From positions 87,190 through 151,189 of IMG/VR virus record IMGVR_UViG_3300020055_000005: 64,000 bases of DNA. One strand, 5' to 3'. Below the pieces are notes generated by a model. It was not told the DNA's origin. It worked only from the letters and a program-made list of their open reading frames with translations, and ran no database searches. How positions within the stretch are numbered: position 1 is the stretch's first letter; every line of letters starts with the position of its first letter. This DNA comes from a virus. The translations under genes and the position numbers were made by a program. This document shows, piece by piece, positions 7,926 to 56,092 of this stretch.

Positions 7926-8629
7926 AAATCAAAGTCATCTTTCCATAACCATTCCACAAATTTACGTGTCTCTATATCTAGGTCAAACTTAGGTATATTG
8001 AAATCAAGTTGTAATGCTTTACTCGCATCTTCATTAGTCCACCATCTGTCTCGAAAGTCAACTTTAAGATCACCAGTGAGAGACACTATAGTGTCAGTGA
8101 CATCCTCTAACTTGATAATACGAGATATCTGTTCACCCTCATGCATAATCCATTCTGCTTGGGGCAATGTTAAGAGATTGGTATATAATGCATGAAACTC
8201 ATGTGGTTTCAATTGTCCTCTAAACTTAGGGACTCCTTTTATATCCATATCTAAGTTCATCATCACTGGTATGAACCTCATAACAGACACAAATCTATCG
8301 TATGGATTACGTGTAACAGTGAATACGTCTATATCGTGATCTGCAATCCACTCCTTGAGTGTAGGGAACACTTTAAATGCCTGTTCAAGTGTTAGATGTG
8401 CATAGTCATCGATAGGTAAATTCGGATGATCAAGTATGGATTGATAATAAGGATTCTGTTTTATCCTTTCATCTGCATACGTTGGTAAAAAGTGATGTGG
8501 ATTCCGTATTTCTACCTTACCACTATATGCTTCACGAATATATGATCGAATGAAGGTACCTGCAGTCTTTGGTATATGCATGAATAATCCAAAGAACTTA
8601 CGTGACTCGACATCTTGTAATGCATACAT
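7916..8629 (-). CDS. Sulfotransferase family protein (237 aa)
   Basis: FMHIPKTAGTFIRSY (16-30) is the 5'-phosphosulfate-binding loop and FTVTRNPYDRFVS (about 103-115) the 3'-phosphate-binding motif of PAPS-dependent sulfotransferases (Sulfotransfer_2 type). It would transfer sulfate from PAPS to a sugar or lipid, cytoplasmically. The stop codon lies inside tRNA-Ala. Its 5' end abuts the zinc-ribbon gene. Confidence 0.75.
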   Translation of the reverse strand: MYALQDVESRKFFGLFMHIPKTAGTFIRSYIREAYSGKVEIRNPHHFLPTYADERIKQNPYYQSILDHPNLPIDDYAHLTLEQAFKVFPTLKEWIADHDIDVFTVTRNPYDRFVSVMRFIPVMMNLDMDIKGVPKFRGQLKPHEFHALYTNLLTLPQAEWIMHEGEQISRIIKLEDVTDTIVSLTGDLKVDFRDRWWTNEDASKALQLDFNIPKFDLDIETRKFVEWLWKDDFDLGL

Positions 8630-8814
8630 TATTTTACCTTCTTCTTGAACTTCCTTTTCTTATCTCTTTCTATGTGCCAGTCGTGACTACAATATGCATC
8701 GCAAAATACGTGTAGTCCACTATCATCATTCCAATATTTAACTTTCGTCAGATCGATTAATGTCTGACACTGACTGCATTTCTGCGTATTGTTCTGATTC
8801 ATCATCAGCTCCAT
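8629..8814 (-). CDS. Small zinc-ribbon-like protein (61 aa)
   Basis: CSQCQTL near the N-terminus and CDAYCSHDW further on give a C-x2-C ... C-x3-C metal site; the tail is very basic (RDKKRKFKKKVK). It overlaps the end of the upstream oxygenase by 77 bases; MNQNN (later Met) is an alternative start. Confidence 0.5.
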   Translation of the reverse strand: MELMMNQNNTQKCSQCQTLIDLTKVKYWNDDSGLHVFCDAYCSHDWHIERDKKRKFKKKVK

Positions 8815-9427
8815 CTATTGATTCGATTGTTGTTTCGTGATATCTACCAAACCATATTGCTAACACCCATCTTTCTCCTTTGTATATGGGTTCAACACTA
8901 TGCCATCTTTCAGTAGAATTATTAAATGTCACCATAGTACCTAGTCTAGGTTGTATAAGATGTCCTTCGACATTTAATCTACCTCCTTCATATTCATCGT
9001 TAAGGAAAAATATTGCAGTTGCAGTATCATTACCATCTGCAACGTCTTTATGCCACTGGAACATTGCATCTTCTTTGTATCTAATGATCTGTGCATAGTT
9101 GACACCATCGTAATCTTCGTTCTTAGGTAAGTATGGTGTTACAATCTCCATACATTCATCAAATGGTTGTTCATCAGGATGCAACACTGTGAACTCTTTA
9201 AAGTCAGATTCGTATTTCCATGTAGAGTCCATTGCACGTTCATTCTTAGCAGCGACTTTACCACCAATACCATCTACATTCTCCCATATATCTTCAAAGG
9301 GTAATGCAAGGTGGTGACCAATAATTTTGTCACAGTCTCTTCGATCTAATAGTTGATCACCAACCATCAAAAAGTTTGGTGACCTATCAAAGTTATTCTG
9401 TTTCTTGAGTATGTGTAAGTTAGCCAT
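8738..9427 (-). CDS. 2OG-Fe(II) oxygenase, PKHD/prolyl-4-hydroxylase type (229 aa)
   Basis: Shows the full facial triad: H126 and D128 in FQWHKDVAD, H176 in RWHSVEPI, and R186 for 2-oxoglutarate (GERWVLAIWF). The EGGRLNVEG strand is typical of P4Hc/PKHD hydroxylases. The start MANLHI overlaps the TAA of the next upstream gene (TAATG). Substrate may be a phage or host protein, or a small molecule. Confidence 0.8.
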   Translation of the reverse strand: MANLHILKKQNNFDRSPNFLMVGDQLLDRRDCDKIIGHHLALPFEDIWENVDGIGGKVAAKNERAMDSTWKYESDFKEFTVLHPDEQPFDECMEIVTPYLPKNEDYDGVNYAQIIRYKEDAMFQWHKDVADGNDTATAIFFLNDEYEGGRLNVEGHLIQPRLGTMVTFNNSTERWHSVEPIYKGERWVLAIWFGRYHETTIESIDGADDESEQYAEMQSVSDINRSDES

Positions 9428-10110
9428 TATAGTGTTGGATGAAAGAATCGCACATAAGAGTATCTCCATGTGTCTTTGTATTTACTGTAGTCGTTTATGT
9501 ATGCACCATGCAATCTATTGCCTGGGAATATAACACATCGATTGAACTTTGCAGGTATGATGTGGTCAATGGTAAACAGTTCTTCTACTGGATACAATAG
9601 ATTCTGATGTTCTGCATTCCATATCCACTCCCCACCATATACTGCAGTACCACCATCTTCGATCTTATCTAGATACACTATCAGATTAAGTGTCGACATA
9701 TCGTCTGCAGTCGCTAACTCACTATCTGTATGTGGGTAGTGTTGATACTTGTTATCAGTTACTGCAAGTGGTTGAAAACAATTTATCTCTATGTTATCAT
9801 TACAATGATAGTTCGCTTTGTTCCAGTATCGTCTACAGATTTGTTTCATAGTTTCAATACTGTTTTCATATAAACGTGTAGGATGACCTACAAAATCTAC
9901 AACACGACAATCATTATAATCAATACCATTACGACTATCACGTTCACTGTTATATTTCCACATGGGTACAGGACGTGTCGATAAGTGTTCATGTATGTCC
10001 TCTGCATTTGCAAAGAAGTTATCGATGGTTACAACCTGAGTCTTCTCATCAAATGTTGGTTCTAAGTGTGGACTTAATTTCCACAGTTCTTCTGTAATAT
10101 ATGGTTTCAT
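9427..10110 (-). CDS. 2OG-Fe(II) oxygenase-like protein, DUF6445 type (227 aa)
   Basis: HYPHTDSELA gives H127/D129, FPGNRLHGAY gives distal H201, and WRYSYVRFF offers the 2-oxoglutarate Arg. This arrangement matches DUF6445-like enzymes. ATGA overlap with the preceding oxygenase gene fixes the start (MKPYITEEL). Second of three consecutive oxygenases. Confidence 0.7.
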   Translation of the reverse strand: MKPYITEELWKLSPHLEPTFDEKTQVVTIDNFFANAEDIHEHLSTRPVPMWKYNSERDSRNGIDYNDCRVVDFVGHPTRLYENSIETMKQICRRYWNKANYHCNDNIEINCFQPLAVTDNKYQHYPHTDSELATADDMSTLNLIVYLDKIEDGGTAVYGGEWIWNAEHQNLLYPVEELFTIDHIIPAKFNRCVIFPGNRLHGAYINDYSKYKDTWRYSYVRFFHPTL

Positions 10111-46901: not shown

Positions 46902-47180
46902 TTATCTCTTATTACAAGTACCTTTTACTCTATCAAGAACTTGCATGTTATTATGGACAACCATTGAAGTTAAAAGTATTGGTGCATACAAGTCTTCGTT
47001 TGTAATAGTCACTGCTTCGTGAATTGCACTATAAGAAGGAATAAGAATTACACTCTTTAAAAATAACATTTCACCTAATGTTGGTATACGAGGCAAAAGT
47101 GGATTCAATTCATAAACACAATCATATTGCATACCTTTAGATGTTGACCAAACATCTGCAAGTTGTAATGCAACAAACAC
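46902..47180 (-). CDS. Membrane protein (92 aa), probable GTG start
   Basis: The real gene probably starts at GTG (VFVALQLADVWSTSKGM) with AGAGG eight bases upstream; the longer frame would run inside the cyclase in another frame. Hydrophobic segments occur at about 2-10, 37-50 and 60-72, with NPLLPRIP between, as in small DUF5658-like membrane proteins. Follows the cyclase and may be its partner. Confidence 0.5.
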   Translation of the reverse strand: MFVALQLADVWSTSKGMQYDCVYELNPLLPRIPTLGEMLFLKSVILIPSYSAIHEAVTITNEDLYAPILLTSMVVHNNMQVLDRVKGTCNKR

Positions 47181-47208
47181 TGCCCATACCTCTATATCTG
47201 CTGGTTCT

Positions 47209-49050
47209 CTAAACTGTATATATGGTAACTTTTTCGGATTTTCCCTTAACAAGGATTCTATCGACTTCTGTAAATGCTGTTGATGGACATAATCTATAAG
47301 TTCTTTCCGATAACAACACTCGTACCCCATCATAATTTCTTGTTTGACCTTCGAGTCTAGCTCCCAAGTTGACGGCATCTCCAATGACGGAATAGTCAAA
47401 TCTAAGTTCTGACCCCATGTTTCCAACGATGCACTCACCTGTAGAGATGCCGATACCGACATCAATAGAAGGAAGACCTTCAACTTCAAGTTCCTTAATA
47501 AGTTCATCCGCCTTAACCGAAATTTCTTGGGCACTTTTTACTGCCATCTCTGCGTGATCTTCACAGTCCAAGGGAGCATTCCAAAATGCCATGATACAAT
47601 CGCCCATGTATTTGTCGATGGTTCCTCCATTCGACAATATTATTTTTGTCATGGTATCAAGGTATTTATTAATTAACATAACTAACCCTTCAGGGTCATC
47701 ATTATTCTTATAGTGTTCTGATATTGGAGTGAACCCACAGATATCCATAAAGAGGAATGTCATTTCTTTTCTCTGACCACCTAACACTAGCATGTCAGGA
47801 TTATCCTGTAGTTGTTTGACCATCTCAGGAGATAAATACTTTTGGAACTGTTTTCTAATCTGTTCCTTGAGTTGAAATGTCACATAGTATTTGTTATATG
47901 ATGCATGTCCAAAAACAATCAAGGAGGCGATTGATGAGTAGAAAGTATCGAAAAGAACGAGACTTGAAGACCACAAATAGAAACCCCCACCCACCTGAAA
48001 TCCTACAACACCTAGACTCCCTAGAGCCGCAAAAGTTGTGGGAAGTTTGTAGACCATTACCAACACTAATATCAGAACTATCAGAAGAAGAACAACTTCT
48101 AGAAATTCAAGATAGTAGGATTGTTGTATTTGAGCTTCTTGCAAGACGGTTTGGAGGATTGAGGCTTGAACTTCGTGGGGATACATTGTACCCACTGGAG
48201 TTGAAACTGGATTATTCAGACCTTCCGCTGTCAGACCCCAAATCAGAATCTTATTCTGTACATCACTAGAAGGTAAATCTACTGCAGATATTCTTTCGAA
48301 ATCATGCCAATAGGAAATCATAATATCTCCTGTTGGTGTGGTTTCGATAGGAGGTTGTCTCCCCATTCTAATCCATTCTATACCGACTTCCTGTGTAACT
48401 CTTGTTTGATAATTGGGCTGATCATAAAATGCACGTAGTGTCTCTAACACTATAGATGGATATATCTGATCATTTGCAGTAACGATTAGTGGTGCAGAAC
48501 GAACTGTTCCGTCAAAGTTTGGTGTTCCTGCGAATGGTGGTGTTGCAGTTGTTACTCCTACACCATAAGTGTTATCCTGTAAGATAGGAAGTGGTGCAAC
48601 GATTCCTGTAAAGTTCCATACACTATCTTTGATATCTCCACCCCCAAATATAGAAGTGTTAACAAAAGGTGCAGAACCTTTTTGTATTTGTGCAGATGGA
48701 GCTGCAGATAGAATTGTCAACCGATTGATTAATCCTTCGGCGAACATCTCATCTTCGCTGGCGTCTCGGTCAGGTTTACTGAATAATTGTGTAAATACGT
48801 GAGTGTTAGTGTAATGAGTGTCTAAGAGGATATCCCTGTAGATACTACGTTTGATTGGATACTGTCCATACACTTCAAGTGTCTTTTCATCAATATCTAC
48901 TAAAACAATATTCTCCGTCGCCAGGCGTTCTTGAGTCTGATGTAAGAAGTCGAACCATGACCACTGGATATTTTCAACAACGTATGGTGACCAAACCTTC
49001 AGTCCGACCAATAGTGAAATGGTCACTAAGACTGTTTTCCAACTATACAT
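47209..49050 (-). CDS. CHASE2-domain class III adenylate/guanylate cyclase (613 aa)
   Basis: Residues 5-24 are a membrane anchor, about 28-310 a periplasmic CHASE2 sensor (NIVLVDIDEKTLEVYGQYP, VRSAPLIV), 316-387 three more helices, and 400-613 the cyclase domain. All catalytic residues are present: metal ligands D436 (FMDICGF) and D484 (KYMGDC), base-selecting K480, and N561/R565 (VNLGARLEG). The Lys suggests ATP as substrate. Class III cyclases make cAMP or cGMP as dimers. It lies downstream of curli-like and FecR genes in the same operon, overlapping the 49050 gene by one base. Confidence 0.9.
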   Translation of the reverse strand: MYSWKTVLVTISLLVGLKVWSPYVVENIQWSWFDFLHQTQERLATENIVLVDIDEKTLEVYGQYPIKRSIYRDILLDTHYTNTHVFTQLFSKPDRDASEDEMFAEGLINRLTILSAAPSAQIQKGSAPFVNTSIFGGGDIKDSVWNFTGIVAPLPILQDNTYGVGVTTATPPFAGTPNFDGTVRSAPLIVTANDQIYPSIVLETLRAFYDQPNYQTRVTQEVGIEWIRMGRQPPIETTPTGDIMISYWHDFERISAVDLPSSDVQNKILIWGLTAEGLNNPVSTPVGTMYPHEVQASILQTVLQEAQIQQSYYLEFLEVVLLLIVLILVLVMVYKLPTTFAALGSLGVVGFQVGGGFYLWSSSLVLFDTFYSSIASLIVFGHASYNKYYVTFQLKEQIRKQFQKYLSPEMVKQLQDNPDMLVLGGQRKEMTFLFMDICGFTPISEHYKNNDDPEGLVMLINKYLDTMTKIILSNGGTIDKYMGDCIMAFWNAPLDCEDHAEMAVKSAQEISVKADELIKELEVEGLPSIDVGIGISTGECIVGNMGSELRFDYSVIGDAVNLGARLEGQTRNYDGVRVLLSERTYRLCPSTAFTEVDRILVKGKSEKVTIYTV

Positions 49051-49307
49051 TATGAAAATTTCTTTTGAATATATTTAAAAATTGCGTAGATTGATAATCC
49101 GTAAAATGCAAGTACGGACATTGGTATACCGATATATGCAAGTTCCCATGGTGATAAAAATAAAATCTCCCATGCAAAGTTTGATGCAGCTTCCACATCA
49201 CCCATTGCTTCAGGCATTGCAATATCATTCTCTACAAATAGGTCTAAAATCTCATCGTATTCTTCTTCGGTGAGACATTCATAAAACTCAGGAGGACACT
49301 CTGTCAT
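49050..49307 (-). CDS. Single-span membrane protein (85 aa)
   Basis: Acidic N-terminal half (CPPEFYECLTEEEYDEILDL) and one helix (about 57-78) with a basic end, so the acidic part is likely periplasmic. Located between a curlin-like gene and the cyclase. No family recognised. Confidence 0.6.
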   Translation of the reverse strand: MTECPPEFYECLTEEEYDEILDLFVENDIAMPEAMGDVEAASNFAWEILFLSPWELAYIGIPMSVLAFYGLSIYAIFKYIQKKFS

Positions 49308-50138
49308 TTAGTTTCCCTGAGTTACATTTACAGTGCATCCACCTACGGTGTGACATGTTTGTGTTAATGAATATGTTTGATTAGTGTCACCTGTTTGAGT
49401 CAGAGTTAAATCCGTCCCATAGGTTCCACCTAGTGTTATGGTTGCAGTATGAGCTCCAGTCTTTTTCTGAACAACATGTACTTCATTGTTATCGTTATTG
49501 ATTGTTCCTGTGAGTGTCTTGTTTCCGTTCTGCAATTGTTTTGAGAAGACATCGTTGTAGTCACCATAAATGTTCCAAGTCATGGAATGAGTTATACTAC
49601 TTGAATCTTGTTTCTGACTTCCTTTAAAGTCATTGTAGTCACCATGAATATCTAATCTTACAAAGTTCCCACCAGGCTCTGTTCCATCATAATCCCAAGT
49701 AGGTGTAAGTGAGTTATTAAGTTCATACCCTTGACCAAAGACAACTTGATTGTAATTACCTTGAATGTGGAATTGGAAATCATTGTCATTACATGTTGCA
49801 AAGGAACATCTTTGTCTGATTTCTATATCGTTGTCTTGTCCGTCTAAGTCTCCACCCCAATTATAACCTGAACCCCATGCATCAGTATATCCAATGTACA
49901 TGTTGTTACCTTTTTGAGCTAACTTTATAGTGTTGTCTTGATGATCAAAAGAAAAGAGAACTGTATTTGCAAAACCTTGTTGTGTTACATCTAAATCTAA
50001 ATTATCACCACTATTAACTTGTCTGATATCTATTGAGTTATCGTCTGCGTGGACGACACCAATAAAAAGGATGAATGGCGCCCAAGGCGCCACCCAGTAC
50101 TTGTAAAATAAACGTTTTATTTTATTTAAAAAATCCAT
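49308..50138 (-). CDS. Curlin-repeat-like secreted protein B (276 aa)
   Basis: Signal peptide with long N-region (FYKYWVAPWAPFILFIGVVHA) and cleavage before DDNSI. The mature chain is a series of Asn/Gln/Gly-rich beta strand-turn units such as NSIDIRQVNSGDNLDLDVTQ, QDNDIEIRQ, GDYNDFKGSQKQ and TVNVTQGN, the pattern of CsgA/CsgB curlin repeats. Probably exported through the CsgG-like pore. The start overlaps the 50126 gene in another frame. Confidence 0.7.
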   Translation of the reverse strand: MDFLNKIKRLFYKYWVAPWAPFILFIGVVHADDNSIDIRQVNSGDNLDLDVTQQGFANTVLFSFDHQDNTIKLAQKGNNMYIGYTDAWGSGYNWGGDLDGQDNDIEIRQRCSFATCNDNDFQFHIQGNYNQVVFGQGYELNNSLTPTWDYDGTEPGGNFVRLDIHGDYNDFKGSQKQDSSSITHSMTWNIYGDYNDVFSKQLQNGNKTLTGTINNDNNEVHVVQKKTGAHTATITLGGTYGTDLTLTQTGDTNQTYSLTQTCHTVGGCTVNVTQGN

Positions 50139-50272
50139 GCTAATAATAATCCCAAAACTAGACCTTTTGTGAATGAAATCCACATTGCATGGTACTCTGT
50201 AATTCCAAGTGATTGAATCCACTTGTAACTCCAGTTCTCATGCCAGTCAAGAAGTTTTCTTAAATTATCCAT
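50126..50272 (-). CDS. Small membrane protein (48 aa)
   Basis: MDNLRKLLDWHENWSYKWIQ then one hydrophobic span (MWISFTKGLVLGLLLAWIF) at the very C-terminus. GGAGAC ribosome site upstream. The last 13 bases are also the first codons of the next gene (ATGGATTTTTTAA). Confidence 0.55.
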   Translation of the reverse strand: MDNLRKLLDWHENWSYKWIQSLGITEYHAMWISFTKGLVLGLLLAWIF

Positions 50273-50298
50273 ATAAGTCTCCTAAGTTCCTTTACTAT

Positions 50299-51444
50299 TT
50301 AGTTAGTTTGATTTATAAAAATCTCGATTGCTGGGTCTCCGTTACCGAATTCGATAACACCCTGATAGCCTTCGACATACGTATCTATAAATCCTGAATT
50401 CCCATTCTGTATGATTATCTCAATAACACCGTTTACATTACGATAAAAATATAAGTCTCCGTCTTGTACAAAGACATTGTATTGTGAATCTTTATTGAAT
50501 CCCATAACTGCACCTTTAAGTGTAACAGTTCCACCACCTGAGTCTGCCTGCACATCTTTCAGTGCGACTGTTGTTCTTGTTAACTCTTCTACTACATCTA
50601 ATAGGTCAGTAAGGAAATCAACATCTAATAAATCTATGTCTAATTCTGAAAACTCTAAATCTTCTTTAGTGTCTTCTAATGCATCTTGTTCTAATTCATT
50701 AAACTCAAGGAAATCTACATCTAGTATTCCTTGATCTTGGTCTTGGTCATCTGCAACTTGGTCTTCAATTGCTTGTTTGATTTCTGTAGGTGGATTGACG
50801 ATAAACATATTGTCAATCAATGCAGGTGTGATACCATTTATAACTACAGATGATGTTGGTGGACTATCCAAAGACGATACCATAGTTGCTTGATACGCCT
50901 CATTGAGTGTCACTTCTCCACCTAAGTTTGACACTACTATTTCACCTGATGCATCTCCGTTTGCATCTGGCAAAAGTATAACGAGTGACCTTCCGATCTC
51001 ATCAATACTCGTTGTAAAATCTGTTCCGTTGATTGCGATTTGTGCCGTAGGTGTTGACACATTGATATTTTTCTTTCTGATTTTTTGACCTGTACCTGAT
51101 GCAAATCGAGCTGTACCTTGCACCATTCTGATTGACATTTTGGATAGGTCAGGGTTTGGGTCATAATATGCTTCATCGATATAGACCCTAGTCTGTTCAG
51201 TCATATCAATAAACTCGTTATCCAGTAGAACTATTTTCATTCTACCATTACCAGTTCTTGCCTCATCATAGAGGATGACATCACTACCGACTGAATGTGG
51301 ATATGACTCTGTACCACGTAGGAGTTCACCCACTCCTGTTGATTCTACAATGTCACCAATGGGGTCATTTGCATGAACCCCACTGATAAACAACAAACTA
51401 AGAATCGTTAGCTGAGTCTTTCTGATTAATTTGAATGATCGCAT
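50299..51444 (-). CDS. FecR-domain secreted protein (381 aa)
   Basis: Signal peptide (TILSLLFISGVHA|ND), then a FecR domain: MKIVLLDNEFIDMTEQTRVY, IRMVQGTARFASG, ISVxTPTA-type segment (NINVSTPTAQIAINGTDFTT), EIVVSNLGGEVTLN. C-terminal half is acidic and coiled. In bacteria, FecR-domain proteins often neighbour CHASE2 cyclases. Here they share an operon, suggesting a periplasmic sensing or scaffold role. The start MRSFKLIRK overlaps the preceding gene by 47 bases. Confidence 0.75.
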   Translation of the reverse strand: MRSFKLIRKTQLTILSLLFISGVHANDPIGDIVESTGVGELLRGTESYPHSVGSDVILYDEARTGNGRMKIVLLDNEFIDMTEQTRVYIDEAYYDPNPDLSKMSIRMVQGTARFASGTGQKIRKKNINVSTPTAQIAINGTDFTTSIDEIGRSLVILLPDANGDASGEIVVSNLGGEVTLNEAYQATMVSSLDSPPTSSVVINGITPALIDNMFIVNPPTEIKQAIEDQVADDQDQDQGILDVDFLEFNELEQDALEDTKEDLEFSELDIDLLDVDFLTDLLDVVEELTRTTVALKDVQADSGGGTVTLKGAVMGFNKDSQYNVFVQDGDLYFYRNVNGVIEIIIQNGNSGFIDTYVEGYQGVIEFGNGDPAIEIFINQTN

Positions 51445-52138
51445 TGTCACTCGTAATGTCAAGTGTTAAGATTGATGTAGGTGATGAACAACCTGATGCA
51501 CCTGAAGGACAGGTACCTGTTAATTGGTTAATATCTACATCTGCACTATCCCCATCAAGTGTAAAAGTAAGTGATGAGTCACTTGCATCATTTTGTAAAG
51601 TATTAATATTGTTTGAGGAACCAGTGACATCAAAATTCCATGTCAGGTTGTCTGCCTCCCAATCAATATCAAAAACATTCGAACTACCGATCAATATTAG
51701 ATCGGCGTCTAAAGATTCTGCGCTAGTAACATAACCTTGGTCGATATCAAAAGTATTAGAACTTCCAGTTACGTCAAAATTAATGTTAGAGCTATCTGCA
51801 CTGCCGAGATAACCGATGTTCCAATCTATTGAGTTAGAATCTCCAGTGAAGTCCAACTTATAGTATGAACTATCTGCAACAACTGGCCCGAATAGGACGT
51901 TGTTGTTGCCTGTAAAATCTAAATCAAACTCTAATGTTGCACCTGTGATACTCATTGTACTTGATACTGAACCTGAGGAACCATTGTCCCCACCGATTTT
52001 GTTACCAAAACCAACTTGGTCAATATAAAGTTTCAAAGTGTCACCAGTTTGAGTGATCTTAATTTCGTTATCATCAGTGGCTTGTGCGAAAACGAATCCA
52101 GTCGACATTAATAAAATTAAACTAATTAGTTTCTTCAT
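51398..52138 (-). CDS. Curlin-repeat-like secreted protein A (246 aa)
   Basis: Signal peptide MKKLISLILLMSTGFVFA|QATDD. Mature chain of short beta units: NEIKITQTGDTLKLYIDQVG, GNNNVLFG, GDSNSIDWNIG, SSNTFDIDQG, SSNNINTLQND, INQKDSANDS, with regular SN/GSSN turns and I-D/N-Q positions. Typical curlin-type amyloid subunit, with more Asp than CsgA. It overlaps the csgG-like gene end. Confidence 0.7.
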   Translation of the reverse strand: MKKLISLILLMSTGFVFAQATDDNEIKITQTGDTLKLYIDQVGFGNKIGGDNGSSGSVSSTMSITGATLEFDLDFTGNNNVLFGPVVADSSYYKLDFTGDSNSIDWNIGYLGSADSSNINFDVTGSSNTFDIDQGYVTSAESLDADLILIGSSNVFDIDWEADNLTWNFDVTGSSNNINTLQNDASDSSLTFTLDGDSADVDINQLTGTCPSGASGCSSPTSILTLDITSDNAIIQINQKDSANDS

Positions 52139-53033
52139 TTTCGTTATACCCTTTTATTTTCCAAAAACCCCTATGGTGTCCTTGGTAGATTAATTCCAAC
52201 ACTGCAGCCTCAATCGCTGTTCGTGTTGCGTAAGTCACTGATTCATTATTACCCACACCGTCTTCAATCTCTATAAGTTGGGTTCCTTGTTCGACGAATC
52301 TAAAAACATCGCCTCCTGAACCGTAACTCAAAAGAGTTTTCCGAGTTTGTACATTTAGTAAAACTTCTCCAGTGAGAACACTTACTGCTCTCATAGAAAT
52401 TGTGACAACATCTTGTCGATACTGTCTCGAATAACCAATGCCGAGGGTTCTTGCGCCTGTTCCCCCAGTTTTAATATTGGTATCATAGCCAATTATACCA
52501 CCCTCTATTATCATTCCTGCGAACAATAGAGGTTGAATTCCTTTAGGGTCATCCCCTGTTGCAGATGCATACTCCTGTCTTGCAGAACGTATGATCTGTC
52601 TCTCTCTTATTAATGCATCAATTCCATTTCTTTCTACAACACGAAACCATGTTCCGTCTCCTGCAGTTTTTAATGCATCGATAACCATCTCTACTCCACC
52701 TTGTGTTACGGCAGTTGAGAATGATGCAATGTTATCAACAGACTTTCTTTGTCCTGTTTTGTCTAAAAAATTATAGACAGTTACAATTGGTCTCTCTTCT
52801 GCAGGTGGTAGTTTTAAAAGTTCCAAGTAGGAAGGTAACCTAACTACCTGTGGACTTTCTACGCAAATGTATCTACGTGTAACCTGTTTTGCAACACCTG
52901 TAACTACGTCTTTACCAAACCCTTCATCGAACCTACCTGTTTCATAGGCACAGTCTGCTGGGTTATCAGACCACTTTGGGACTGATGCACATCCACTTAT
53001 AAGAAGTGTTAATGCAAGTAAATACTTAACCAT
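52122..53033 (-). CDS. csgG: CsgG-like curli secretion pore lipoprotein (303 aa)
   Basis: Lipobox LLISGCASVP, then VTVYNFLDKTGQRKSVDN, a VEMVIDALKTAGDGTWFRVV-ERNGIDALIRERQ block and GIQPLLFAGMIIEGGIIGYD ... RQDVVTISMRAVSVLTGEVL, all matching CsgG. CsgG forms a nonameric outer-membrane channel for curlin export. The start (MVKYLLAL) overlaps the CsgF stop. Slightly longer than E. coli CsgG because of the N-terminal insert. Confidence 0.92.
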   Translation of the reverse strand: MVKYLLALTLLISGCASVPKWSDNPADCAYETGRFDEGFGKDVVTGVAKQVTRRYICVESPQVVRLPSYLELLKLPPAEERPIVTVYNFLDKTGQRKSVDNIASFSTAVTQGGVEMVIDALKTAGDGTWFRVVERNGIDALIRERQIIRSARQEYASATGDDPKGIQPLLFAGMIIEGGIIGYDTNIKTGGTGARTLGIGYSRQYRQDVVTISMRAVSVLTGEVLLNVQTRKTLLSYGSGGDVFRFVEQGTQLIEIEDGVGNNESVTYATRTAIEAAVLELIYQGHHRGFWKIKGYNENEETN

Positions 53034-53535
53034 CTCCACCACCAGTGTCAGGGTCTTGTCCAAAGTTTCCTGTTCCTACTGGTATCTCAATGACTGTTGT
53101 TGTTCCTTCGGTATCGATAATAGTCATTTTGATAACATCAGTTCCGTCTGCGTTAGTTATTACCTCCCATGTAATAACACTTCCTTCAAGCGTAAATGAC
53201 CCAAAGTTTGATGCAGTATCATTACTAAACATTGATTCAACTAACTGTTTAGATAGCTGTGCGTAAATTCTCGATTCTAAATTTCTGATAAATTTTGCAA
53301 GCGTGGTATTGTCCGCTTCTCTTTCTGCGGCCTTCCTTGCCGCCTCCAAGGCATCCTCTATTTGTTTCTTCCTTGAGAACTCTTGGTTCTCAATAGTCAA
53401 ATAATGGGCACCTGTACCGACCCCACTAAAGCTGGGGTTCTTAAATCCAAATTTAATTTCGTCTGCATAAACGTTTTGTGCATGTAAGAACAAAACGAAT
53501 ATAATTGCACTACTTACTAATACTTTTTTTAACAT
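53026..53535 (-). CDS. csgF: CsgF-like curli assembly factor (169 aa)
   Basis: Signal peptide (FVLFLHAQNVYA|DE) and the mature N-terminus IKFGFKNPSFSGVGTGAHYL, equivalent to the E. coli CsgF segment FQFRNPNFGG that plugs CsgG. The C-terminal end is Gly/Asp-rich. CsgF anchors the nucleator at the cell surface. No CsgE-like gene is seen. Confidence 0.9.
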   Translation of the reverse strand: MLKKVLVSSAIIFVLFLHAQNVYADEIKFGFKNPSFSGVGTGAHYLTIENQEFSRKKQIEDALEAARKAAEREADNTTLAKFIRNLESRIYAQLSKQLVESMFSNDTASNFGSFTLEGSVITWEVITNADGTDVIKMTIIDTEGTTTVIEIPVGTGNFGQDPDTGGGDG

Positions 53536-53812
53536 TCTTTTTCACCCCTTTCAATAGGGCGTCCTCTTCTATTTTCTCTTTCATTCTGTATTCTAAGACT
53601 ACGTTAACTTTTTGTTGAAGTCTAATCATGTCTTGATCTAACATCCTAGTTTGATCAATAACACGTATCAATGCAATGTGCATCTTTTCAATTTCAGGTT
53701 CTATTCTTTCAGAGATAAACTTCCAAATGAAGAAGATAAAATACCCCATACCAACACTCATGACAACAGGAAAACCGTAATCTTTAATTAGGTTTGCTAT
53801 ATCTAAATCCAT
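53510..53812 (-). CDS. Single-span membrane protein, paralogue 1 (100 aa)
   Basis: LIKDYGFPVVMSVGMGYFIF membrane segment (about 8-32) then a long charged coil. It shares the order 'D..[FT]P..M..GMG.FIFF' and a following coil ending in LEYR/LELR with the 53835 gene, so the two are paralogues. Overlaps csgF by 26 bases. Possibly membrane anchor or holin-like. Confidence 0.6.
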   Translation of the reverse strand: MDLDIANLIKDYGFPVVMSVGMGYFIFFIWKFISERIEPEIEKMHIALIRVIDQTRMLDQDMIRLQQKVNVVLEYRMKEKIEEDALLKGVKKNVKKSISK

Positions 53813-53834: not shown

Positions 53835-54128
53835 TTAGTCTCTCCTCACGTCGAGTTTACCGTCTTCTATGAAGTTTTCTGATCGTGAGATTCTATCGAT
53901 ATCAGGTCTCAATTCTAATGCAGATGAGACTAACATGTCTATCTTAATCATTTCGTTTGACATTGTTCTTGCTCGGTTCTCTAAACTTTCACAGAACATG
54001 GTAAGCGTTTTTATATCGTCTACTATACCTTCAAGGATTTGTTTGAGTACGATAAAAATGAAGACACCCATCACAATTGCCATTGCGATAGGAGTTCCCA
54101 CGTCAGTTATCAAGTCAAACATTTCCAT
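53835..54128 (-). CDS. Single-span membrane protein, paralogue 2 (97 aa), possibly leaderless
   Basis: MEMFDLITDVGTPIAMAIVM then FIFIVLKQILE and a charged coil. The ATG lies five bases after CATAAATA, the T4-style late +1. First gene of the apparent curli operon. Not recognised as a named family. Confidence 0.6.
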   Translation of the reverse strand: MEMFDLITDVGTPIAMAIVMGVFIFIVLKQILEGIVDDIKTLTMFCESLENRARTMSNEMIKIDMLVSSALELRPDIDRISRSENFIEDGKLDVRRD

Positions 54129-54133
54129 ACGAT

Positions 54134-54141
54134 TATTTATG
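54134..54141 (-). promoter_or_regulatory. Late-type promoter box CATAAATA
   Basis: One mismatch to TATAAATA, five bases before ATG 54128. Probably the main start for the curli-like/cyclase operon. Confidence 0.55.
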
Positions 54142-54179
54142 GAAATAGACTGTTTGCCTGTCAATAAAATGACAGCTTA

Positions 54180-55046
54180 TCAGAAATTTGAAATGAGGTC
54201 TACGAACCTTTTTTCGGAGTTTGAGTTACCCACTTCTTCTGCAATAACAGGGAAGTCATACGGCCCAAAGTTCTCATAGGTGAGAGAGATTGTAGGTGCG
54301 GCTGCATTGATTGCCATATCTGCCCTATGTTGAGGGTCACCATATCTTACACCATCAACTTTAACCCAACAATTTGCATAGTAAGGAACTCTGTTTTTTG
54401 CGTAAGACATGATAGTTCCTTGGGTATCGTTTGGCATATACCCTGCACCAACAGTAAATGTAGGTGTCTCATCTCTAGTATGTGCAAGTCCTAATTGATG
54501 ACCTATCTCATGTGCAAAAATATATTCAGTTGAAGTGTCTTGGTCAGGGTCAATGGTTGCGATATCATTCTTAGAATAACATGCAGTCATCCCTGCAGTC
54601 ATACCTTCACCTTTCCATGGCCACCCTGCACCACAAACTTCCCAGTCCTGAGTGTTATCAAGCATGACATGAACCATATCTGCCTCATACTTATCAACCA
54701 ACCATGCCTTTTCATAGAATGGTGAGTACTGATGCCAGTCTTCTAAGTCATATGCGAGTTCGATATTACCCAACTCATCATAAGTGTTTTCAATATCTAC
54801 AGGTTCTACAAATGCAGCTTCCATGTGGATTTGGATTCCATTCAATGCGAAGATTTCATTTAGTTGACGAATGTAACCGAACACTCTACGACTATCCATT
54901 CTATCATCAACATATACACCCAGTCGAATTACGTTCATACCAGGCCTGTATACCATTTCGAAATCAGAGTAATTGGTTTCCATACCAATACAGTTTTCAT
55001 AATTGACTACATCACATTCGATGTAATCTGCTTCAATATAGTCCAT
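54180..55046 (-). CDS. Metzincin-type zinc metalloprotease (288 aa)
   Basis: AHEIGHQLGLAHTRDE (about 177-192) is the HExxHxxGxxH zinc motif and GTIMSYAKNR the Met-turn, so it belongs to the metzincins (reprolysin/M12-like). No signal peptide is seen, and eight Cys-free acidic residues precede it. It may be a virion or late lytic protease, or process curlin-like proteins encoded immediately downstream. Its own promoter region follows a terminator. Confidence 0.8.
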   Translation of the reverse strand: MDYIEADYIECDVVNYENCIGMETNYSDFEMVYRPGMNVIRLGVYVDDRMDSRRVFGYIRQLNEIFALNGIQIHMEAAFVEPVDIENTYDELGNIELAYDLEDWHQYSPFYEKAWLVDKYEADMVHVMLDNTQDWEVCGAGWPWKGEGMTAGMTACYSKNDIATIDPDQDTSTEYIFAHEIGHQLGLAHTRDETPTFTVGAGYMPNDTQGTIMSYAKNRVPYYANCWVKVDGVRYGDPQHRADMAINAAAPTISLTYENFGPYDFPVIAEEVGNSNSEKRFVDLISNF

Positions 55047-55885: not shown

Positions 55886-56092
55886 TTACTTATCCAATAA
55901 TGGATTTTTGTCCTTAGCTTTACCTATTGCTAGTGCTAAGACCTCTAAGTATTTATACACCTTTGCCCAGACCTTATCGTCCTGAGGTGTTGGTGTAAGT
56001 GATACTATAACTGAACAAATTGAGATTACCACTGGGATGATCATCAATAAGTTCCAAATACCCATAATAAAGTCTATAATTCCTGAGAACAT
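55886..56092 (-). CDS. Small membrane protein, holin-like (68 aa)
   Basis: Hydrophobic N-terminal half (FIMGIWNLLMIIPVVISICS) and PTPQDDKVWAKVYKYLEVLA C-terminal helix. Such 'TPTPxDDKxWxKVYK' proteins recur in marine phages; some have been called holins. No direct proof. Confidence 0.5.
   Translation of the reverse strand: MFSGIIDFIMGIWNLLMIIPVVISICSVIVSLTPTPQDDKVWAKVYKYLEVLALAIGKAKDKNPLLDK

Follow-up and report, generated by a model that had tools for sequence, protein, structure and literature searches.

The two curlin-like proteins encoded in the window, by which we mean the whole analysed stretch of 64,000 nucleotides (positions 87190 to 151189 of a virus record of 151,189 bp with T4-like replication genes), are in our judgement very probably the subunits from which the fibre of a curli (type VIII) secretion cassette of the phage is made; the first subunit, cur1, is constant between relatives and the second, cur2, is swapped. 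What the sequences show directly is the cassette with its curlin repeats, a gene order that is conserved, and the way in which the two subunits evolve. On this reading, a marine phage carries a gene set for the export, by its host, of curli-type (amyloid-like) surface fibres. The genes of the cluster, all on the minus strand, are given below in transcription order.

53835..54164, minus strand: tmA, 109 aa, one hydrophobic segment, TTG start (phrog_18771, 6.6e-26)
53510..53812, minus strand: tmB, 100 aa, one hydrophobic segment by hydropathy, paralogue of tmA (phrog_18771, 1.6e-24)
53026..53535, minus strand: CsgF (PF10614, 2.5e-14)
52122..53063, minus strand: CsgG outer-membrane pore lipoprotein, TTG start (PF03783, 1e-50)
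51398..52138, minus strand: cur1, first curlin-like subunit, 246 aa, ATG start (Curlin_rpt, repeat units, AlphaFold2 model)
50299..51462, minus strand: FecR-domain protein, signal peptide by reading, TTG start (PF04773, 8.3e-11)
49308..50138, minus strand: cur2, second curlin-like subunit, 276 aa, ATG start (Curlin_rpt, motifs, CsgA profile matches)
49050..49307, minus strand: small membrane protein of 85 aa between cur2 and the cyclase (open reading frame, hydropathy)
47209..49050, minus strand: CHASE2 and class III adenylate/guanylate cyclase (PF05226, 5.8e-29; PF00211, 8.1e-19)

The reading frames overlap at CsgF/CsgG, CsgG/cur1, cur1/FecR and 85-aa gene/cyclase, an operon-like arrangement. 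The two curlin genes are linked to CsgG and CsgF and are not adjacent to each other, being separated by the FecR-domain gene, which has an alternative in-frame ATG at 51444. For CsgG the ATG at 53033 is the likely start, with a lipobox (LLISGC), and 235 residues of the protein were aligned to E. coli CsgG structures (9e-48); a search of the PDB with CsgF gave no match. An in-frame ATG is found at about 54128 in tmA, for which no Pfam match was obtained at E<=1, and at the same threshold Pfam showed no kinase domain in tmB. The CsgE gate of a complete E. coli-type curli system was not found: the whole 151 kb of the phage record gave no match to PF10627, with the E. coli control positive. CsgE is reported as non-essential in the available text of PMC7029224. 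The late promoter TATAAATA occurs 7 times in the window against 4.6 expected, a difference that lacks significance; every copy is on the coding strand, and one (55950-55957) lies upstream of the curli cluster. Adjoining the cluster upstream is a reprolysin/matrixin-like metalloprotease (54180-55046; HExxHxxGxxH, E 1.3e-10), present among the fetched loci in the window phage and locus L003 only. A predicted open reading frame at 46902-47534 runs in a different frame over the final ~300 bases of the cyclase gene; it has a signal-peptide-like N terminus, and relatives of it occur in 49 of the 60 loci described below.

The original prediction was that two divergent curlin-like subunits are encoded here, both secreted and built of irregular, Asp-rich strand-turn repeats. 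Both reading frames proved to be real, and both begin, by reading, in the manner of a Sec signal peptide, with a Lys-rich start, a hydrophobic core and an A-x-A-like site (...STGFVFA/QATDDN in cur1 and ...LFIGVVHA/DDN in cur2). Against the curlin repeat of Pfam (PF07012), cur1 scored 24.1 bits (E 3.6e-5; cut-off 20.7); cur2 scored 20.1 bits as a whole protein (E 6e-4), just below the cut-off, and 24.6 bits in the genome scan. Both may be counted as matching this family, but the matches are weak and near the cut-off. At E<=0.01, PF07012 was found in 37/40 relatives of cur1 and 16/32 relatives of cur2.

The core motif of curlin repeats is N-x-Psi-x-Psi-x-Q (Sleutel et al., PMC10192328). Strict copies of this motif number 6 in cur2 and 3 in cur1; in 5000 shuffles the means were 0.36 and 0.21, and these counts were reached by 1 and 2 shuffles, respectively. 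As controls, the operon's FecR and CsgG have 0 copies; in E. coli the count is 5 for CsgA and 6 for CsgB. In cur1 we also found five strand-G-[DNS]-[DNS]-N-strand units at a spacing of 22, 26, 26 and 22 residues (shuffle mean 0.02; 0/5000). Repeat detection had been named as a check of the strand-turn repeats, and with motif and unit counts far above shuffles it bears them out. By these counts cur2 fits the curlin pattern of a repeated motif with a unit of about 23 +/- 5 aa, and cur1 fits it only as a member of the degenerate class. The richness in Asp was confirmed: Asp makes up 13.6% and 10.6% of the mature phage proteins vs 6.1% of E. coli CsgA and 3.8% of CsgB, about two to three times the E. 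coli curlin frequency. The remark that the two proteins are large for curlins did not hold up, as the published repeat numbers of CsgA homologues run from 4 to 62 (PMC10192328) and the lengths of CsgB-annotated proteins from 50 to 561 residues (PMC3521004).

Compared as profiles, the cur1 and cur2 families are homologous (hhalign 98.9%, E 1.4e-17). They have a common mature N terminus, DDNxIxIxQ...GDxLxLxxxQxGfxN; in both families this segment is the initial curlin repeat, and CsgG may recognise it. Both family profiles match E. coli CsgA or CsgB. Against the PDB, the cur2 profile matched E. coli CsgA (8enq, 3.4e-5) and Pontibacter korlensis CsgA (8c50, 8e-4); the cur1 profile found nothing among the PDB sequences. 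Near the C termini, pairs of Cys are conserved that are absent from E. coli curlins (C-x5-C in cur2 and C-x6-C in cur1 of the window phage); a disulphide cap is a possible role for them.

AlphaFold2 models were built from alignments of 40 (cur1) and 32 (cur2) relatives. Both were predicted as beta-solenoids with moderate confidence (cur1: pLDDT 80.7, pTM 0.78; cur2: pLDDT 78.8, pTM 0.80). The cur1 model aligned to P. korlensis CsgA over 194 residues (Z 16.0, rmsd 9.0, 21% identity) and equally well or better to SufB/SufD solenoids (Z 15-17, rmsd 3.2), which stand at the top of the list; the structural matches of the cur2 model were SufBD and pectinase-like solenoids. Foldseek against the PDB matched neither model at E<=0.001, so that the fold match depends on the second structural aligner, whose list is headed by the SufBD solenoids. 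Since non-curlin solenoids (SufB/SufD, pectate-lyase-like) score as high, the predicted fold is compatible with curlins and not diagnostic of them. The structure-prediction check thus came out divided: the beta-solenoids appeared (pLDDT 79-81), but solenoids other than curlins match them equally. The claim of two divergent curlin-like subunits is upheld by the core motif, Pfam, profile similarity to CsgA/CsgB and the CsgG/CsgF neighbourhood together with these predicted solenoids.

IMG/VR scans matched 365 related stretches with CsgG, 438 with cur1 and 299 with cur2. We picked 80 IMG/VR loci by CsgG alone, 60 of which extend to the cyclase; CsgF, cur1, FecR and cur2 are all present in 60/60 of the latter, tmA in 57, tmB in 58 and the 85-aa gene in 14. 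Mean pairwise identity over 80 complete cassettes was 64% for CsgG, 56% for cur1 and 42% for cur2. The gene order is also that of HTVC008M (host Pelagibacter) and Melnitz (host OM43), in which the cur1/cur2 profiles match gp016/gp018 and gp101/gp103, respectively. A tblastn search with cur2 found nothing in the phage records, although the profile does detect cur2 in both of these phages. The GenBank record of Melnitz itself contains two proteins annotated with curlin repeats (L084:6716-7435 and 8494-9510; label 'curlin associated repeat protein'), and they match the cur1/cur2 profiles with E 7e-16 and 7e-25. In HTVC008M, the second curlin (gp018, L083:8585-9910) is annotated as hypothetical and combines its curlin repeats with a PA14 domain (2.7e-6) at the N terminus; inspection by eye of the other long cur2 proteins showed no PA14 domain. 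The DNA polymerase of the window phage has its best matches in cyanomyoviruses (48%), with HTVC008M and Melnitz at 45-46%, and psbA, which was looked for while weighing a cyanophage origin, was not found. A bacterial origin of cur1 was considered and rejected: the six matches in genome_contigs are all metagenome-derived contigs with the same cassette, and the two longest of these stretches share the replication genes of the window phage and are thus likely phage contigs. Two cassette-bearing phage contigs from this source (L085, L087) lie within a metagenome-assembled 'Sphingobacteriales' genome, a placement that is probably a binning error or due to a co-binned virus.

Across these cassettes cur1 follows the cassette phylogeny and cur2 does not. 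Neither the phage setting, the published cassette nor this behaviour of cur2 was part of the original prediction. Loci L067 and L077 are nearly identical in CsgG (99%), cur1 (98%), FecR (98%) and cyclase (98%), whereas their cur2 proteins are 43-45% identical. The corresponding values are 97, 96, 96 and 98% against 41-42% for L024/L030, and 94, 92, 86 and 86% against 38% for L003 and L091, where L003 is identical to the window across CsgG, cur1 and cur2. Among pairs with all other core genes at 85% identity or more, cur2 was at or below 55% in 5/25; the same test applied to CsgF, CsgG, cur1, FecR and cyclase gave 0 of 26-34 pairs. The five divergent pairs are non-independent, since L024 is in three of them. 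At the DNA level, identity falls from 95-100% in the flanks to about 40% at the cur2 frame and is back up at the stop codon or a little beyond it; the drop comes after the cur2 leader in L067/L077 and L003/L091 and before the leader in L024/L030. On a tree of CsgF+CsgG+FecR+cyclase, the allele types of cur2 need 36 changes for 20 types (60% identity) and 34 changes for 12 types (50%), while 9, 11 and 18 types of cur1 need 8, 10 and 20 changes, respectively. The genes tmA and tmB exchange too, less strongly than cur2. Within cur2, the conserved first repeat and a C-terminal TxxYxLxQxCxTxGGCxVxVTQ flank a variable middle, and among relatives its length is very variable (186-314 aa in the 80-locus set) while that of cur1 is constant.

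Rank correlation was less informative. It gave a rho of 0.05 for cur2 at first, on loci picked partly by cur2 similarity; part of the 80 loci had been picked in this way, and L024 and L067 belong to the CsgG-picked set. On CsgG-selected loci only, the value was 0.20 for cur2 and 0.16-0.39 for the other genes; the correlation is weak for every gene, and the contrast is weak because CsgG identity spans a narrow range there. The claim of a swap therefore rests on the near-identical pairs, the breakpoints and the tree, which mark cur2 as an exchangeable, hypervariable allele. It is probably the exposed or specificity-giving subunit of the fibre.

Point changes at a very high rate, or slippage between repeats, could in principle have produced the divergence of cur2 in place of replacement, and its range of lengths fits repeat gain and loss. 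We regard this as improbable, because the boundaries are sharp with nearly identical flanking DNA, the same cur2 types recur on distant branches of the tree, and some cur2 pairs are closer than their flanks (L063/L115, 0.84 vs 0.63). Even harder to accept is that the cassette is a secretion pore for lysis timing or nutrient uptake with the curlin genes as remnants. This was put forward for Melnitz by its authors, and the available text of their paper (PMC9004378) describes csgA and csgB as absent. The premise of missing curlins fails, however, as Melnitz has both by our profiles and by its own record, which takes away the claim that phages of the Melnitz type are without fibre subunits and with it the basis of the lysis-pore model. 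The presence of both curlins in 60/60 loci would also be unexpected for remnants, and the swap of cur2 speaks, short of proof, more for recognition at the surface than for a pore-only role.

That cur1 and cur2 are beta-solenoid adhesins or surface-coat proteins, exported through the CsgG/CsgF pore but not polymerising into amyloid fibres, is unlikely. The strong degeneracy of cur1 speaks for this identity (its Gln core is changed to Asp/Trp, and it has 35 acidic vs 5 basic residues), as do the Cys pairs of both proteins and the good scores of solenoid adhesins and pectinase-like folds. Yet the first repeat is conserved in both families, the repeat length is curlin-like, the linkage to CsgG/CsgF is invariable, the profiles match true curlins, and degenerate-class curlins are known (PMC10192328). 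We counted against the fibre explanation the moderate confidence of the models with their unspecific fold match, the small number of strict core motifs in cur1 (only 3), the failure to find CsgE in the record, and the report by the Melnitz authors that they observed no clumping among infected cells (PMC9004378). A pure fibre model also gives no account of FecR and the cyclase. Because the FecR-domain protein carries, by reading, a signal peptide and is encoded between the curlins, a periplasmic or secreted role seems at least as likely as iron regulation.

The reading that we prefer remains that of phage curli fibres, and the secretion, fibre formation and subunit roles given here are what we infer from the gene content. 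During infection, cur1 and cur2 would be exported by the Sec system of the host, pass the outer membrane via the phage-made CsgG/CsgF pore and build a curli-like beta-solenoid fibre on the infected cell's surface. In this fibre cur1 would be the constant partner, most likely CsgB-like or an assembly partner, and cur2 the exposed subunit, whose variable middle would set what the fibre sticks to or recognises. A nucleator/major-subunit pair is plausible, and the assignment of the roles is guesswork: the length pattern resembles that of Dueholm 2012, in which CsgB size is constant and CsgA size variable (PMC3521004), which by analogy makes cur1 CsgB-like and cur2 CsgA-like. Sibling capture, superinfection defence, uptake and lysis timing have been published as hypotheses on the purpose of phage curli (in the available text of PMC7029224, PMC9599517 and PMC9004378). 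The most likely use would be adhesion or aggregation of infected cells ('sibling capture') or the blocking of competing phages, with cur2 giving the specificity. That cur2 alone of the two subunits is exchanged points to it as the subunit that may decide what is bound or seeded by the fibre, and the constant cur1 beside the swapped cur2 shows which protein is under selection for variety. We tentatively propose, as a possibility somewhat short of even, that phage curli in general are two-part fibres made of a constant subunit and of cur2, whose allele locus is subject to diversifying exchange and provides every phage lineage with a specificity of its own. If so, cur2 could decide which cells stick together or which amyloids cross-seed, and its exchange would be analogous to the exchange of tail-fibre adhesins.

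Compared with the E. coli curli system (csgBAC, csgDEFG), the phage cassette has the CsgG and CsgF export genes, the N-x-Psi-x-Psi-x-Q motif, the G..N turns and a repeat length near 23 in common. In contrast to E. coli, the phage repeats are degenerate and contain more Asp, there is no Gly-rich N22 leader, Cys pairs are conserved, CsgE was not detected, and FecR and the CHASE2 cyclase are extra. P. korlensis CsgA is alike in the alignment to the cur1 model and in the profile match to cur2, but 8c50 is the published example of the regular centrosymmetric class, whereas the phage proteins are irregular. The closest likeness is to the cassette of pelagiphages (HTVC008M, Melnitz, pelagipodophages and pelagimyophages), which has two curlins in the order CsgF-CsgG-curlin-FecR-curlin-cyclase and in which CsgE was not found. 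The available text of published work describes CsgF/G in pelagiphages (Zaragoza-Solas 2020, PMC7029224) and the cassette with two CsgA/B proteins, FecR and cyclase (Wittmers 2022, PMC9599517), in the order CsgF-CsgG-CsgA/B-FecR-(CsgA/B)-(cyclase), which the window cassette follows. The same source reports phage curli at all 65 GOV2.0 ocean stations analysed, omits CsgA/B from its trees as too short, divergent or paralogous, and reports histidine kinase gene(s) upstream of CsgF. In the window, the genes upstream of CsgF encode single-segment membrane proteins of ~100 aa with no detectable kinase domain; tmA and tmB may be the genes that these authors called HK (histidine kinase). The window CsgG is 43% identical to that of HTVC008M and 46% to that of Melnitz over 70% of its length. 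Exchange of second-curlin alleles is not described in the available portions of the open-licence papers PMC7029224, PMC9599517 and PMC9004378. The curli cassette itself is already known, with the window as a further member, and what seems new is the comparative result that cur2 is swapped.
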